Shown here piece by piece: positions 1-26,836 of a stretch of DNA of 57,539 nucleotides. The notes below the pieces were generated by a model that saw only the letters and a program-made list of their open reading frames with translations, was not told where the DNA came from and did no database searches. The translations under genes and the position numbers were made by a program. This DNA is from a bacterium (GTDB lineage Bacteria > SZUA-182 > DTGQ01). The stretch's first letter is position 1. Every line of letters begins with the position of its first letter. The DNA lies in NCBI GenBank assembly GCA_023512255.1, contig JAILZY010000015.1:1-57539 (forward strand). The letters run 5' to 3'.

Positions 1-76
1 TGATGAGCATGGAAAAGATACCTTACAGGAAATGCCAGAATAACTATTTGAATCTATTGGCGCAAAAAAGGCAAGG
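1..76. other. sequence left of the CRISPR array (possible leader edge)
   Basis: These 76 bases precede the first complete repeat and contain no repeat copy or convincing gene. Spacers in the array are mostly 35-49 nt, so this is longer than a normal spacer. The repeats decay toward the right end, which suggests that the leader lies on this side, partly outside the window. No promoter can be assigned from this fragment. Confidence 0.35.
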
Positions 77-1777
77 GTAGAAATCCATGACCTGATGATT
101 AAGGGATTGCGACGATTCAGATGAGACTCCGCCAACGACTGTTTTTGAGTAGAAATCCATGACCTGATGATTAAGGGATTGCGACTCCCTCCTATGTATT
201 AAAGTTTAAAATGACAATCTCCGTAGAAATCCATGACCTGATGATTAAGGGATTGCGACTTTATTATCCCAATACCGATGATAAAAAACCCACGGCAAAT
301 TAGTAGAAATCCATGACCTGATGATTAAGGGATTGCGACTTATTTGATAAAGATTCCCATACTGCCTTATTTTTTTTCAATTCTCTGTAGAAATCCATGA
401 CCTGATGATTAAGGGATTGCGACATGCCCTGTAAAAGCGACCTTAAATGGTCGCAAGGGTTCCGTAGAAATCCATGACCTGATGATTAAGGGATTGCGAC
501 TGCAGACGAGTTTTTTGCCTCGTCTTCGGAGAGCCGTTGGGTAGAAATCCATGACCTGATGATTAAGGGATTGCGACACTTATTATTTTCGCGGCATCCC
601 GAATTTTGTGAAAAGTAGAAATCCATGACCTGATGATTAAGGGATTGCGACCGCACATAGTATACCACTACGTACGGGAGTAATTTTGCAGTAACGTAGA
701 AATCCATGACCTGATGATTAAGGGATTGCAACATAAGTTTGGCCACCTGACACAATGGTTATATTAATTGTTATTAGGTAGAAATCCATGACCTGATGAT
801 TAAGGGATTGCGACAGTAATACACAGTATGGCAACACCTCACCATTGTTGGTAGAAATCCATGACCTGATGATTAAGGGATTGCGACACTATCCAACAAT
901 AAGTTAACTACTTCTAATACTAGTAGTAATGTAGAAATCCATGACCTGATGATTAAGGGATTGCGACAAATAATATAGAAGCAACTACAATCATCAAACT
1001 TGAATACGTAGAAATCCATGACCTGATGATTAAGGGATTGCGACTTACGATGACCGCCGCCCCTCTCCTCGGCGACTATGATTAGCTGGTAGAAATCCAT
1101 GACCTGATGATTAAGGGATTGCGACATCCAGGAGCGCTTTTTTGGGGGTTGTTCCTATTCCATAGCAGATTGGTAGAAATCCATGACCTGATGATTAAGG
1201 GATTGCGACAATTTTTCTATATTATAATTGTGGTTATGAAATTTCATATCCAGTAGAAATCCATGACCTGATGATTAAGGGATTGCGACCCTCTACGGTA
1301 ATGGGGAGGAGTTCCTCCTCTCCAAGTAGAAATCCATGACCTGATGATTAAGGGATTGCGACGAATACGTTTACGCAGCTCGGGACTGCTAATATTGATA
1401 TTATTACTGTACATAATAATGCATAGTAGAAATCCATGACCTGATGATTAAGGGATTGCGACCTTTTATAATAACGTATAGTATTAGTATGCTTCTTTTT
1501 ATTCAGTAGAAATCCATGACCTGATGATTAAGGGATTGCGACTTATTGTACCTAACCGCAGTGACAGCAACTTCCAGTTGGTAGAAATCCATGACCTGAT
1601 GATTAAGGGATTGCGACTTTAATGCTTCTTTCAATATTTTTTGTAATAGCTTTAATTTTTATTTGAGTAGAAATCCTGACCTGATGATTAAGGGATTGCG
1701 ACTCGTTCCCCGTCTCCTGTAATCCAGGGGGAGATTATAAGTAGAAATCCATGACCTGATGATTAAGGGATTGCGAC
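77..1777 (+). CRISPR. CRISPR array, 22 repeats of 37 bp
   Basis: Repeats begin GTAGAAATCC and end GGGATTGCGAC. They start at 77, 149, 223, 303, 387, 464, 541, 615, 696, 778, 851, 931, 1008, 1089, 1173, 1253, 1326, 1426, 1506, 1581, 1667 and 1741. All are identical except the copy at 696 (ends GCAAC) and the copy at 1667 (one base missing, 36 bp). The 21 spacers are 35-49 nt apart from one of 63 nt (1363-1425), and none looks like another. The ATTGcgAC 3' end resembles the ATTGAAAC ends common in type I and III repeats, so this orientation is favoured. No cas gene lies in the window, so the subtype is open. The reverse strand has open frames reading repeated SLNHQVMDFY peptides; these are artefacts of the repeat. 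Confidence 0.98.
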
Positions 1778-1937
1778 ACCAAGTACGGGTACGTTGTACC
1801 GTGCCCCTACCAATGACCAATGTACAGCCTGTGGACAGGCAAAATCAAACAGGTAGCCCAGGCGGCTCGCCTGTGCTACCAGCCCGCCCAGGCGAGCCGC
1901 CTGGGCTACCTGTGCTACCCTAAAAGGAGCTAATTCC
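1778..1937. repeat. intergenic segment with 22-bp perfect inverted repeat
   Basis: The stretch between the last regular repeat and the small gene at 1938 contains perfect 22-bp arms, GGTAGCCCAGGCGGCTCGCC... at 1852-1873 and its complement at 1889-1910, around a 15-nt loop. A third partial copy (TGTGCTACC) follows. GC-rich GCCTGGGCTACC palindromes of this type occur as dispersed repeats in several environmental bacterial genomes (recalled, not searched). It lies just upstream of the ribosome binding site of the next gene and could form a hairpin in its leader. Confidence 0.7.
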
Positions 1938-2258
1938 ATGTCCAAAACAAACAATGATGATCTGATTTTTGATTTCTGGGCACATAATCCGACTTGGGAT
2001 GAAATGATAAAGATGTGGGGTGATGCCGTACCTGTTGTTTGGGGAGAACCGCTTACAACCGGTGAAAACGCCCGCGATGTTACTGCCCATACCATTGCCT
2101 GCCTATATGCTCTGCGAAGAGATAAGATTAAAGCCCAGCAGTATGCCAGAGCCATAAATGATGAAAAGTGGCGAGCTGATGCTTTTAAATTCATTGAAAA
2201 TCCAACTGTTTTTGATCCTATCAAAGGCCTTATCCCCTTGGCAGAAGAGCAATCCTGA
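1938..2258 (+). CDS. hypothetical protein, 106 aa, inside the CRISPR distal end
   Basis: I do not recognise this protein. It is small and soluble, with no signal peptide or membrane segment. The N-terminal half is Trp-rich and acidic (FWAHNPTWDEMIKMWGD, then VPVVWGEP), and the C-terminal half is probably helical (RRDKIKAQQYARAIND). An AAAGGAG ribosome binding site sits 9 nt before the ATG, which supports real expression. The gene lies between CRISPR repeats: the last array repeat ends at 1777 and an isolated intact repeat starts at 2293. It has therefore been inserted into the array, or the array has grown around it. A role in CRISPR function or defence is possible, but nothing in the sequence shows it. 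Confidence 0.7.
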   Translation: MSKTNNDDLIFDFWAHNPTWDEMIKMWGDAVPVVWGEPLTTGENARDVTAHTIACLYALRRDKIKAQQYARAINDEKWRADAFKFIENPTVFDPIKGLIPLAEEQS

Positions 2259-2292
2259 GAAACTCTTCGTCTACGTCTGATTTTGATTTATC

Positions 2293-2329
2293 GTAGAAAT
2301 CCATGACCTGATGATTAAGGGATTGCAAC
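2293..2329 (+). repeat. isolated CRISPR repeat, GCAAC variant
   Basis: A full 37-bp repeat matches the array consensus except that it ends TTGCAAC, the variant also seen at 696. It lies 515 bp beyond the last regular repeat, with the small gene between, and is followed by a 61-nt spacer-like stretch. Confidence 0.95.
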
Positions 2330-2390
2330 TTACCATGCACATCTACCAAGAGAGGATCAATCAGGACTAAATAAGGTGGAAAAGTAATTG

Positions 2391-2425
2391 GTAAACATGC
2401 ATGAGCAGAATTAAGGGATGGCAAC
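2391..2425 (+). repeat. degenerate terminal CRISPR repeat
   Basis: The sequence starting GTAAACATGCATGAGCAG and ending ATTAAGGGATGGCAAC aligns end to end with the repeat, with several substitutions and two gaps. Repeat decay normally marks the leader-distal end of an array, so this is probably the true right end. Confidence 0.85.
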
Positions 2426-2535: not shown

Positions 2536-3129
2536 ATGGCTACACCAGGACAAGAATTAGCTTCATTGGATTTTGAAAGTCTTATTGGCGGACCGCTAGT
2601 GGCGATTGTCCATGCCCAGGCTCAGGCTGCTTTGGCTACGGCCAATTTTATCAAGCAGGTTGGCTTCAAGCCACCAACAGGTACGCAAACTGCGACCGAG
2701 CAGACTACGGGAGAGCCGGCAACTGTCACCTTTACCTACAAGAAGATGGTTCCCAAGGCGGATGGAAGCGGCGAAGAAGAAAAGACCGCAACCCTAACCG
2801 TTCCTTTCCTGGCCATGCTGCCAATTCCCTATCTGCGGGTGGAGGAGGCCAATGTGGATTTTTTGGCCAAGATCAACTCTGTCCAATTTCGGCAGGTTGA
2901 CACCAACCTGGAGGTAAAGGGTGAGCTAGAGGCTAAGGCAGGATGGCTGTGGGGAAGCGCAAGACTCAAAGTTACCACCACCTATCAGAGGCAGACCAAA
3001 GAGGGGTCTACTGTAACTCGAGACTATTCAATGGGGGTCAAGGTGAAGGCTGTTCAGGAGGAGATGCCCGGCGGGCTGGCTAAGCTCTTGAGCGTTCTTG
3101 AATCGTTGATCAAAGAGACTACAGCCTAA
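2536..3129 (+). CDS. DUF2589 family protein
   Basis: This 197-aa soluble protein opens with LDFESLIGGPLVAIVHAQAQ, the hallmark N terminus of the DUF2589 family: a short amphipathic segment followed by AQAALATANFIKQVGF. The middle is predicted beta-rich (VTFTYKKM, LTVPFLAMLPIPYLRVEEANVDF), and the family name rests on this pattern. The biochemical function of DUF2589 proteins is not known to me. There is no signal peptide. A GGGAGG ribosome binding site 8 nt upstream fixes the start. The gene is followed after 19 bp by a partner gene of matching style, and the pair ends in a strong terminator, so it is a two-gene unit beside a CRISPR array. Confidence 0.75.
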   Translation: MATPGQELASLDFESLIGGPLVAIVHAQAQAALATANFIKQVGFKPPTGTQTATEQTTGEPATVTFTYKKMVPKADGSGEEEKTATLTVPFLAMLPIPYLRVEEANVDFLAKINSVQFRQVDTNLEVKGELEAKAGWLWGSARLKVTTTYQRQTKEGSTVTRDYSMGVKVKAVQEEMPGGLAKLLSVLESLIKETTA

Positions 3130-3148
3130 GTCAAGGAGGGTCTTCCCA

Positions 3149-3895
3149 ATGGCAAGTTTAGGAGAGGTAGTCGGTGCCCTGATCAGTCAGATCAGCAAGG
3201 GGCGAAGTCAGGCGGATATGGCTACCTTGGAAGTGGCTAAGGTATATAAAGAGCACCCTCTCCTGTCGTCCTTCCCAGTGCCGAAGATGACCCTGGATGA
3301 AGTGGTGATCGACCTTAAGGTGTCGATCTCGGCTGCTCCGGTGCGAAAGGTTCTGAGCGCTGAGGCAAAAAGGGAAATCTTGGCTGAGATAGATAAGATG
3401 ACCCGTGAGGCAGTAACTAGTGAGCCCTCTCTACAGAAGCTCAGCCGCAAATTTCCTGATCTTTCGGGCATCATGGACCAGACTCATCCCAAGTTTATGG
3501 AGAGATTGTCTGAGCTTTTGCCTGAAGAAAAAGAGATTGAGCCGAAAAGTATTGCCCAAGCCGCAGCTTCGGTCATTAGGGGACATTTGACCGATACGGT
3601 CCTGGGGGCTGATCCGAAGGTAGTTAACAAACTTTCTAAAGACTTCCTACAAAGCGAATCCCCCCAGATTGAGGCTAAATTAGCCTCACAGATCCAGGCT
3701 AAAATCTCAGGGGTTCTTGAGGTTCAGCCAATTGATAAGGAGCGACTTGAGGTCTTGGTAACCGCCTCTGAGCTTCAGTCAATTCCGCCAGAGAAGATCA
3801 CCACCTTGAGACTAACCCTGCGAGAAGCGGATCAATCCTGGACTCAGATCGAGACTGAAAAAGGCGAAGTGCAAGAAAAGCTCGTTCCTCATTAG
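3149..3895 (+). CDS. DUF2589-associated hypothetical protein
   Basis: This 248-aa protein begins MASLGEVVGALISQISKGRS followed by a helix and HPLLSSFPVPKMTLDEVVID. That layout is typical of the second protein found next to DUF2589 genes: a helical N terminus, then a beta stretch built around a PVPK/R motif. The remainder is mostly helical, charged and Ala/Lys-rich, with no transmembrane segment or recognisable catalytic motif. The start is supported by AAGGAGGG 8 nt upstream. It lies 19 bp after the DUF2589 gene and is surely cotranscribed with it, so I infer that the two proteins act together. The function is unknown. Confidence 0.7.
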   Translation: MASLGEVVGALISQISKGRSQADMATLEVAKVYKEHPLLSSFPVPKMTLDEVVIDLKVSISAAPVRKVLSAEAKREILAEIDKMTREAVTSEPSLQKLSRKFPDLSGIMDQTHPKFMERLSELLPEEKEIEPKSIAQAAASVIRGHLTDTVLGADPKVVNKLSKDFLQSESPQIEAKLASQIQAKISGVLEVQPIDKERLEVLVTASELQSIPPEKITTLRLTLREADQSWTQIETEKGEVQEKLVPH

Positions 3896-10745: not shown

Positions 10746-13700
10746 CTAAGGGATAGCCGGCAGAGGCCAGGGCACCGCGGGTAAAACCGCAGGCGGCAGC
10801 GCCTGTGGGGCAACAAGCAGCTTTCGATATTCGGCATCAAGCAGCGGATTGGGCATCCAGTCAGGCAGCGGAGGTGAAGGAAGTGTTGGTGGAGTTGGGC
10901 GCTTGACAGCCAAAGACCAACTTGGGGTTGGATTGATCAGATTCGGAGCCTCATCTGGATCCCCTACCAGAGGATTATGGCATCCCACAAAGCAGGTCTG
11001 CTCAATAGGATTGTATAAGGCCGGCAATCCCGGATAGCTCATCTTGGTCGGATACTCTCCGGTTAGCCGGGGAAAACCAAACAGGGGGTTAAAATCAACA
11101 CTGACTTTCGAGCGGATGAAAACAGGGTTAACCACCGTAGCCCCACCCGCATTGTGCAGACAGCCGATATGGCAGGTCAGACAGTCATATCGGCAATTGA
11201 ACACGTGAACCGAATGGGCTCCGGCCCCGCCCGGATAGTTCTCATCCGTATCGCCGGGCCCAGACCAGCCATTGCCAGTGGTTGTCGGCGGGAAGCTGTG
11301 GCAGTCAATGCAAAATACCGTAATCCGGTTATGCTGATGACAATCGGTGCAGGCGTAGGCCCCTAGGCTAGAGTGCTCATAGACGGTCGGGGTCGGTGGG
11401 GTAATCGGCAGCGGACTTCCCCAGGATGGATTTACGGCCACAAATGGGACCGAGGTCGGCCCAAGGCCGCTTGAGGGCTGATACGACCAGCCGTGACAGT
11501 TGACGCAGATCAGGCGGCTTTCGGTGCTGTTGCGCTGCTCTTTATGATAGGCCATATTGCGACTGGCATAGAATCCGGCATTGACCTTGCCGCCGAGCAC
11601 CTCCTTAATGAAAGCCTGGTTTTGGGTCTTAGCCTTGGTCCATCCCCGATGAGGATCATGACAGTCACTGCAGGCTAGCTTATCACCCTTCATAATGCCA
11701 CCTCCCGCTATCGGCGACTTGATATAGTGGCCGCCAGTTTTAAACCCATAGGGAGGTACATTTTGTAGCCAGAGAGGAGCCACCTCATAGTAGCCGATCA
11801 GCTCTCCGCCAGGCATATCGGTGAAGGCTATATCCTGAGGGATAAACTCTCCGTAGGCAGCCAGCGGAGGATCATCATTACACCGAGAGTGACAATCGTA
11901 GCACAAGATAGTGTCGCCAAGGGTATAGGCGGGATTAATTCTCTGCTGGAAACAGCTCTCTTCGGCAGCAAGACTTCGAGCCCACATGATCGGCTTGCCA
12001 TTCCAGGTTATTCCTGCCGCAGCATTGTGCGGCACATGGCAGGCCGAGCATACGCCCTTTTGGCCGATCTTGCAGCCAAGCCGATAGCCGGGTGAAAAAT
12101 CATGGGGAGAGTTGACGATACCCGAAACCCCAGGATGGCAGCGGATGCACATATCGCTGCCTGAGGGATCAAAGTAGTTGTCTATGACCAGGAGATTGCC
12201 GTGATTGCCCGGGGCCGACACCCCGTCAAGGGAATGGGGAAAATCAGCCCATCCGTCAAAGGTAGTTGACGCCGCGTGAACACTGTGGCAGGTCAGACAA
12301 ATGACCCGTCCAACAACCGGAGCCTCGCCGGCAGGGGTGAAGGTAACCCCTCCTTTTTCACCGCTCAGGCCAGTAGTAAATTCAGGCAGCCAGGTGGTGC
12401 TGGTTGTGCCGGAGACAAGATTTGGCCCTCGCCCAAGCGGATGATTGAGCAGAGGATCAACAAACATGGTACTACCGGGAGCAGTATGACACTCCTCGCA
12501 AAATCCCATGGCCACATAGGGAGACTGGGTTCCGCGCAGGTAGGGAGAGCGGGGATTTGAGCGATTATTGTGAACATCATGACAAGTTCCACAGTAGATG
12601 AGCCCGGCGCTTACTCCGTAATCATCCAGGGTAGCCAACCCCGGCCCATCCGACAGCGGAAACTTGCCGCCTGGCCGGATATTAATGGCCGTAGTCTCGC
12701 TCTTTGGGGCAGTAGCAAAGCGATGACTGAATCTGATACTGCCTGGGATATTCCTCTCTGCCGGATCAAGACTTCGGGGAGGAATCAGTTTCGAGCCAAG
12801 AAGCCCCGGCCCCTTGACAATAACAGAGCGGCCATGACAGCCAAAGCACATATCTTCATAGTCAAATAAATCAATATCATTCCACTTGTCTGCCCAGGCC
12901 AGATTCATAGGCGGAACCCTCATCAGAGCATCAAGATCAGGGGTCAAAATCTCTCCCCGCTGGGTTCCGTCTATATTTTGTCCGTCATGGATAAAGTGGC
13001 AAAGCATACAATTTCCGCAACCAGTCTCTTTTTGGACATTGGCTTTGGTTTCTGGATCCTTTACGGTTATAAGACGCTTGACTGGCGAGGTCCCGACCGT
13101 CTGATGATGCCCCTGCCCTTCATCTCCCAGATTGTAAGCGCTCTTGTCTGGATGACAGACGCAGCAAAAGAGGGCCGAATCTTGCGAAAAATCCCACCGC
13201 AGAAAATTATTATTCCGATCGCCCTGATGGAATCCATTATGGCAGGAAACACAGGTCAGCTCGCCAGCCTTGTTCATCAGGGATTGACCACATCCCCTGG
13301 CCCGGGGAATCTTCCCGAAAACGGCCTGAGTGCCCATTGGATGATGCTCGCGAGGAGTCGGGCTATCATCGCCATGAATAGTGGTTGCACCTGCTGGCCC
13401 CCATTGGGCCGCACCCTGAGGGCCATGACAGCCATAGCAGAGAGAGGATGGAAAATCTCCCGTACTACCATCGTCAATTCGCGGCACATTGGGTTTGGCC
13501 ACAAAGGGTACAGGCACTACCTCCTTGATGAAAATTTTGCGGCCAATGACTTCATTATCAGAGATAAGGGTTGCCCCTCGGTGGGGATGATGGCAGTCCA
13601 GACAGTCATTGTCCGGTGCATGGAGATTGCCGTGGCACTCGATGCAAAATTCCTTCCTCCGGCCAGGCGCGCCAACATTTCCATCCTTGGTGCGAAGGTA

Positions 13701-25756: not shown

Positions 25757-25798
25757 CGACAACTGATAACGGAAGAAAAGAATTTTAAGGATTTGCCT

Positions 25799-26836
25799 AT
25801 GCCAACCCAAGATCTGGCCGCGGTAGAGAGTATACCGCAAACTCTGGATATGCTTCTAACCGTTTCTGCTTCACCCCATATTCGCAGTGAAGTGACGGTT
25901 TCTAAGATTATGTACACTGTTCTTTTAGCCCTCCTGCCGACCAGCCTAGCTGGTGTTTACCTGTTTGGATTGAGTGCCCTGTGGGTTATCCTGCTTGGTA
26001 TCTTTGGGGCAGTAGCCACCGAGGCCCTCATCCAGCCGCTTTTGGGGAAAAAGGCTTCAGTGGTTCTGGATGGAAGTGCGGCTGTAACCGGCCTGCTCCT
26101 GGCCCTGACCCTTCCTCCGTCCCTTCCCTGGTGGATGGTATTGTGCGGCGCGGCCCTAGCCATTATTCTAGGCAAAGCGGTCTATGGCGGGCTGGGAAAC
26201 AATCCCTTTAATCCAGCCCTGATTGCCCGGGTAATCCTCCTGGTTTCATGGCCAGTGCATATGACCCGCTGGCAGAGCGCAAGTTATCTGTTTGCCAGAT
26301 CGGTCGATGCGACTACTGCGGCCACTCCCCTCGGAATGCTAAAAACCGATGGGCTGGCAAGCCTGTCTCACCTTCGGCTGCTTGATCTTTTTTTCGGCTA
26401 TCGGGGTGGATGTATTGGGGAAGTGTCTATTTTGGCTCTTCTTGTGGGCGCGGCCTTCTTGCTCTGGAAAGGTTATATAACCTGGCATATCCCGACAAGT
26501 TGTCTGGCTGCCGCCCTGCTGACTAGCGGCTGTTTTTGGGTATCAAACCCTCAGCAGTACGCCAATCCGCTCTTTCATCTCCTCACTGGTGGCCTGGTCC
26601 TGGGTGCTTTTTTTATGGCCACCGATATGGTTACTAGTCCGATTACCGGCCAAGGGATGCTTATCTACGGTGCTGGAATTGGAATACTGACCATTATTAT
26701 CAGGATATTCGGAGGGTATCCTGAGGGGACCTCATTTGCCATCCTGATCATGAACGCTCTCTGTCCAATGATCGATCGCTATACCCTGCCGAAAGGGTTC
26801 GGGAGGAGCAGAAGGAGAAAGAAAAACCATGCGTGA
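25799..26836 (+). CDS. rnfD: Rnf complex subunit RnfD (flavinylated membrane subunit)
   Basis: This 345-aa membrane protein has about nine or ten hydrophobic segments. The VDATTAATPLGML motif corresponds to the NqrB/RnfD site where FMN is attached to a threonine. FFMATDMVTSPITGQG and the C-terminal GGYPEGTSFAILIMNA are strongly conserved in the family. The start is taken at the ATG of 25799, 7 nt after AAGGA; an upstream in-frame TTG at 25793 is too close to that site. It lies 42 bp after rnfC and overlaps rnfG by 8 bp. No apbE flavin transferase gene is in the window, so flavinylation must be served from elsewhere. Confidence 0.96.
   Translation: MPTQDLAAVESIPQTLDMLLTVSASPHIRSEVTVSKIMYTVLLALLPTSLAGVYLFGLSALWVILLGIFGAVATEALIQPLLGKKASVVLDGSAAVTGLLLALTLPPSLPWWMVLCGAALAIILGKAVYGGLGNNPFNPALIARVILLVSWPVHMTRWQSASYLFARSVDATTAATPLGMLKTDGLASLSHLRLLDLFFGYRGGCIGEVSILALLVGAAFLLWKGYITWHIPTSCLAAALLTSGCFWVSNPQQYANPLFHLLTGGLVLGAFFMATDMVTSPITGQGMLIYGAGIGILTIIIRIFGGYPEGTSFAILIMNALCPMIDRYTLPKGFGRSRRRKKNHA

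Follow-up and report, generated by a model that had tools for sequence, protein, structure and literature searches.

Array architecture and polarity

The question raised by this locus is how a protein-coding gene, here termed gene Y, came to lie between the repeats of a CRISPR array in the place of a spacer. The window (the whole analysed stretch of 57,539 nucleotides, i.e. the complete contig C120) begins with the 3' part of an array leader: its initial 77 nt are shared without a mismatch by the leader of the array on contig C112 (C112:11030-11106), and the leader of a sister array on C87 is 97% identical. The leader sets the polarity of the array: spacers were added at the left, the repeats at 2293 and 2391 are the oldest ones, and gene Y is positioned at the leader-distal end, which a first-pass annotation of the sequence had thus correctly termed decaying.

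The repeats of the regular array (GTAGAAATCCATGACCTGATGATTAAGGGATTGCGAC) are separated by spacers of 35-48 nt plus one of 63 nt, and a single repeat (1667-1702) carries a 1-nt deletion. Downstream of the last regular repeat (1741-1777) a repeat-free gap of exactly 515 bp is followed by a repeat that is identical to the consensus in 36 of 37 positions (with the mismatch in GCAAC), by a spacer-like stretch and by a terminal repeat that is well preserved in its 3' half alone (ATTAAGGGATGGCAAC; see Table 1). All elements of this arrangement described in the annotation, from the last regular repeat, the gap, the 106-codon reading frame and its AAAGGAG motif to the outlying repeat, the 61-nt stretch and the degenerate repeat, were recovered. 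Its reservation that the two outlying repeats might belong to an independent array does not apply, since they are of the same repeat type and on the same strand; gene Y is flanked by the repeats of one array. Directly past the array end (2536-3895), a DUF2589 gene is followed by a gene for a 248-aa protein without assigned identity.

Table 1. Features of the CRISPR array and of the insert at its leader-distal end (window coordinates).
Feature	Position	Strand	Remark
Leader, 3' part	1..76	+	Identity to C112 leader, 97% to C87 leader
Regular array, 22 repeats of 37 nt	77..1777	+	
Spacer 7	578..614	+	31/37 match, Mu-like prophage G001:C9
Spacer 19	1543..1580	+	27/38 match, same G001:C9 prophage, weaker
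515-bp insert occupying a spacer position	1778..2292	+	
Dispersed-element copy	1783..1815	+	Matches at C135
Inverted repeat, 28-nt arms, palindromic element	1849..1913	.	Relatives elsewhere in host genome
Ribosome-binding site AAAGGAG	1923..1929	+	
Gene Y, 106 aa	1938..2258	+	
34-nt stretch, stop codon to next repeat	2259..2292	+	Common to C144 copy; putative split-spacer origin
Intact repeat, 1 mismatch	2293..2329	+	
Spacer-like stretch, 61 nt	2330..2390	+	
Degenerate terminal repeat	2391..2425	+	

Composition of the insert

The left part of the insert resembles, from position 1783 onwards and thus after 5 nt past the repeat, a host-specific dispersed element (GTA.GGG.ACG...CCGTGCCCCTACCAATG); positions 1778-1817 match C135:5268 in 28 of 40 nucleotides, and a further match is located at C135:5369-5397. 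The adjoining palindrome, given as 22 bp in the annotation, is in fact larger: its two 28-nt arms (1849-1876 and 1886-1913) are 96% complementary, and the region 1741-1940 folds with a z-score of -9.5 versus shuffled sequences. This palindromic element (GTAGCCCAGGCGGCTCGCCTG) recurs at more than ten places in the host genome (C135, C123, C41, C29, C133, C73 and C60 among them), and no significant relative was found in G001, a genome of the same genus.

Outside the element and gene Y, 5 nt at the left (ACCAA) and 34 nt after the stop codon (GAAACTCTTCGTCTACGTCTGATTTTGATTTATC) remain. As these add up to 39 nt, a normal spacer length (35-48 nt), insertion into one existing spacer is the simplest account, the arithmetic being no proof. 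The insert does not qualify as an insertion sequence or MITE: neither a transposase nor terminal inverted repeats or a target-site duplication were found at the ends of 1778-2292. The search of the array spacers against the insert yielded no significant complementarity, and the Rfam search revealed nothing. A common 3' flank between the window and G001 was considered and rejected, its similarity not exceeding that of shuffled sequences (p 0.43).

Coding status and relatives of gene Y

The reading frame of gene Y starts with ATG, 8 nt after the ribosome-binding site. Compared with its homologue in G001 (see below), dN is 0.27 and dS 1.20 (NG86, 98 codons), which corresponds to a dN/dS ratio of 0.22; two further methods gave 0.21-0.33. 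The differences are distributed over the three codon positions as 27/20/43, i.e. with an excess at the third position. This purifying selection argues against a chance frame, and gene Y is, judged from the substitution pattern, a true protein-coding gene. No family was assigned in Pfam, PADLOC or PHROGs, and no match was present among the PDB sequences. Beyond the genus, homologues were absent from approximately 50,000 phage genomes, plasmids, IMG/VR patterns and 386 genomes; the scans of genome contigs and viral contigs used short exact peptide patterns, which remote relatives may escape. An AlphaFold model calculated from the single sequence (pLDDT 69) consists mostly of helices with a TPR-like hairpin at low confidence; it had no significant match in the PDB (best E 0.7) and was not used as evidence of function.

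A second copy beside type III-A cas genes

A partial second copy of gene Y is present in the same genome on contig C144 (C144:3-122), with 97% identity along 190 nt, of which the 34-nt flank and the repeat form part. The contig starts within the gene, and the exact identity of its initial 77 nt with window positions 2137-2213 suggests a de Bruijn break at k = 77; apart from the leader, no 77-mer is common to window 1-1777 and the other contig ends of the bin. The single repeat at C144 carries two changes (GTACAAATCC...GCGAA). The similarity between C120 and C144 ends at this repeat, past which the two loci are unrelated. In C144 the gene copy, the 34-nt flank and the repeat are followed by Cas6, NE0113, Cas10/Csm1, Csm2, Csm3, Csm4 and the start of a RAMP protein in the place of Csm5. 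As the second copy thus abuts cas6 of a III-A operon, the array is linked to a type III-A system. Positions at which window and G001 agree (D93, I95) are altered in C144, and it is therefore the C144 copy that looks like the decaying one.

As to the further cas complement of this genome, the NE0113 (Csx) gene of C144 is split over two frames (1319-2604, L012) and is either broken or misassembled. Contig C11 (L023) encodes Cas2, Cas1, a csx3-containing ORF and a Card1-type CARF nuclease and may belong to the same III-A locus; no sequence overlap joining C11 to C144 was found. A type I-E-like cas cluster, judged from its ORFs and a Cas1 match, is located on C118 (764-8999, L024), and a further Cas1 on C130.

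Over-long units in sister arrays

The C87 sister array contains an older, 759-bp insert (11350-12108, L013) with a frameshifted zinc-ribbon/DUF1232 gene, the end of which runs into the next repeat; a 205-bp MITE with an 8-bp target duplication (TAAGGAGA) is inserted within the ribosome-binding site of this gene. Adjoining the insert is a spacer of 112 nt (11201-11312), over double the normal size. Over-long units were absent from both arrays examined in G001, for which the stretches covered comprise 117 and 42 repeats. On two examples, gene-sized inserts hence seem characteristic of this array family. The last 77 nt of the C112 contig (11799-11875, L014) recur at the ends of C118, C171, C135, C64, C33 and C34; a multi-copy element breaks the assembly right after the short C112 array.

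A homologue in a Mu-like prophage remnant

The sole homologue outside the own genome was found in G001 (C61:39874-40173, minus strand), full-length and with 64% identity over the aligned region. It is flanked by fragments of a Mu portal (PF06074, E 1e-44), minor head (phrog_220, phrog_35295) and tail completion gene (phrog_26), and is encoded on the opposite strand, in convergent orientation to the minor-head fragment, the end of which it overlaps by 32 nt. According to this gene content the C61 locus is a decayed Mu-like prophage; the homologue thus resides inside a Mu-like structural gene cluster, which the window copy does not. No CRISPR array or recognisable cas gene was detected within the 20 kb examined around it. 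The first-pass annotation had proposed to search for homologues inside or beside arrays, and had regarded homologues scattered with no CRISPR association as speaking against its reading. The outcome is divided: the own-genome copy on C144 adjoins a repeat and cas6, the single outside homologue is devoid of CRISPR association, and nothing was found beyond the genus.

A fuller Mu-like prophage is present on G001:C9, with intact portal and minor head genes; it also appears to encode MuA-, MuB-, Gam- and gp16-like proteins. Convergent to the end of its minor-head gene, i.e. at the spot of the gene Y homologue in C61, a 96-aa orphan ORF of no known family is located (L055, 6140-6430). The small genes at this position in both prophages follow the pattern of morons and, by analogy, suggest a candidate moron spot. 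A relationship between Y and the 96-aa ORF was rejected (no BLASTP match, hhalign probability 1.3%).

Among all spacers of the three arrays, spacer 7 matched an ORF of the C9 prophage (at about 25793-25829) with a log10 E of -6.6, shuffled spacers reaching -1.9; spacer 19 matched 1.4 kb away (log10 E -2.2, borderline). The array hence remembers the kind of phage whose remnant holds the gene Y homologue. The phage origin of Y hangs on one locus, as there is a sole phage-context homologue and the wider searches were empty, and the G001 homologue may for its part be a host gene that ended up in a prophage remnant.

Proposed origin of the insert

Gene Y is probably cargo of viral or host origin that became lodged in the III-A-linked array, rather than a part of the standard CRISPR machinery. 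A segment of approximately 480-515 bp would have been lodged in a spacer position by the oldest repeats; it would combine a palindromic intergenic element specific to the host with a moron of prophage type, which brings its own ribosome-binding site. The cargo probably entered an existing spacer, which would thereby have been split into the 5-nt and 34-nt remnants. By repeat recombination or array duplication, the block of gene Y plus repeat would have reached the second place before cas6 of the III-A operon. The protein is most likely a small helical product of the Mu-like phages of this genus directed against the host or rival phages, by superinfection exclusion or anti-defence. Within the array it would be a passenger that could be expressed along with array transcription, because gene Y lies on the same strand as the crRNA and no sigma-70-like promoter was found ahead of it in the insert (plus strand, 1700-1938; the scan knows one promoter type only).

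Observed in accordance with cargo are the position, the content and the flanking repeats of the insert, the selection on the gene, the two copies with a common right boundary, the phage-side homologue and the anti-Mu spacer. Against it stands that both own copies are located beside the same repeat, so that a chance passenger needs a duplication; in addition, the assembly lacks the sequence upstream in the C144 copy. Two options had been offered in the annotation, cargo inserted between repeats by homologous exchange and an ancient accessory gene kept with the array. The former is the better supported, exchange being favoured for the copying step by the end of the C120/C144 similarity at the repeat; for the first entry, insertion into a spacer would fit the lengths. 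The latter draws limited support from the location of both own copies beside the same repeat, one of them abutting cas6, against which stand the restriction to one genus and an outside homologue in a prophage remnant without CRISPR.

Alternative explanations

An anti-CRISPR function is unlikely, yet it is the alternative that survives best: gene Y would encode an anti-CRISPR that originated in a Mu-like phage and became trapped in the array of the host under attack, maybe as a Racr-type unit of gene plus solitary repeat that recombined with the array. The protein is small, genus-restricted and, in the remnant of a Mu-like prophage, encoded at a spot typical of morons; one spacer of the array is directed against such a prophage, and in both own-genome copies a repeat follows the gene after 34 nt, comparable to a Racr candidate (PMC10651486). 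However, the surroundings of the G001 homologue contained no repeat of either genome (best 21/37, about the control level) and the repeat was found in no viral contig. Neither is there an aca-like regulator beside the homologue, its neighbours being head genes (the Aca2_YdiL match of the minor-head fragment reached 13.6 bits, far under the cut-off), nor similarity to known Acr proteins or a match in PADLOC or PHROGs; moreover, a permanent copy in the array would disarm the host.

It is improbable that the 515 bp were acquired by Cas1-Cas2 as one oversized spacer, likewise the 759- and 112-nt units of C87. Three over-long units in one array family are indeed bounded by clean repeats, all of them at the old end; an insertion into a spacer would give the same picture, however, the regular spacers stay within 35-54 nt with the one exception of 63 nt, and the two G001 arrays examined contained no such unit. 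A length of 515 bp is far beyond those that Cas1-Cas2 is known to use.

Rather doubtful, and slightly less probable again, is a use of the array as an expression cassette, in which gene Y would be co-transcribed with the crRNA precursor and Cas6 would cut at the repeats 1741 and 2293, so that the giant "crRNA" would be the mRNA. If this were true, expression of the counter-defence or exclusion gene captured from a phage would be confined to times at which the array is transcribed, providing either a built-in brake or a further line of defence against the Mu-like phages among the targets of the array.

That the array ends at 1777, with gene Y as an ordinary gene and the repeats at 2293 and 2391 as a stray relic, would agree with the decay of trailer ends and with the intergenic host repeat ahead of the gene; it has a still smaller probability in view of the 36/37 identity of the repeat on the same strand and, above all, of the recurrence of the block of gene Y, 34 nt and repeat beside cas6. 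Least probable is a CRISPR-linked accessory or guardian gene, i.e. a toxin like CrePA, a protein toxin paired with a crRNA-like antitoxin, which would be repressed by a mini-array of the two outlying repeats around the 61-nt stretch. The anatomy resembles creA, with two divergent repeats that enclose a spacer-like stretch and adjoin a protein gene, and a cas operon follows directly downstream of the second copy. However, neither gene Y nor its upstream region is significantly matched by the 61-nt stretch (p = 0.64; the seed of 8/11 is the same as in ordinary spacers), C144 contains only one repeat, the cited CreTA/CrePA cases use type I effectors while the operon here is III-A, and the G001 homologue has no CRISPR nearby.

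Implications and comparison with known systems

CRISPR arrays are usually read as pure memory. The case of gene Y, for which lodged cargo is the favoured origin, suggests that whole genes can be trapped in arrays and spread by repeat recombination, and over-long, ORF-bearing "spacers" at old array ends might offer a cheap route to candidate anti-defence genes.

IS6110 is situated in the DR locus of M. tuberculosis, and as in such insertions of IS elements or MITEs into arrays, the present case concerns foreign DNA that separates repeats in the oldest part of the array. For the leader-distal part, insertions and deletions are documented (PMC4869251). Unlike in the IS/MITE cases, the present insert carries no transposase or IS terminal repeats, and an orphan gene with its own ribosome-binding site is under selection and occurs twice by the same repeat. 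The G001 homologue resembles the morons and acr genes of Mu-like phages in being a small orphan on the opposite strand downstream of the minor-head gene, where a second prophage contains a different small gene; in contrast, Y has no similarity to a known Acr or moron family and is present in the host's own array. With the Racr units (PMC10651486), in which a candidate lies 11 nt after an AcrIC5 homologue, it shares a small phage-type gene closely followed by one CRISPR repeat, seen twice; the repeats are here chromosomal (in the array or beside cas6), however, and none is present at the phage-side homologue. CreTA/CrePA systems (PMC8501985, PMC12737573), where creA consists of two divergent repeats around one spacer-like stretch (PMC8501985), are similar with regard to the gene beside two such repeats with a spacer-like stretch and to the copy upstream of a cas operon; they differ in that the 61-nt stretch does not match the upstream region of gene Y and that the operon is III-A instead of type I. 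Thus, while insertions at the old array end are already known, the unusual features here are an orphan gene of phage type that is under selection, and the recurrence of this gene at a cas operon.
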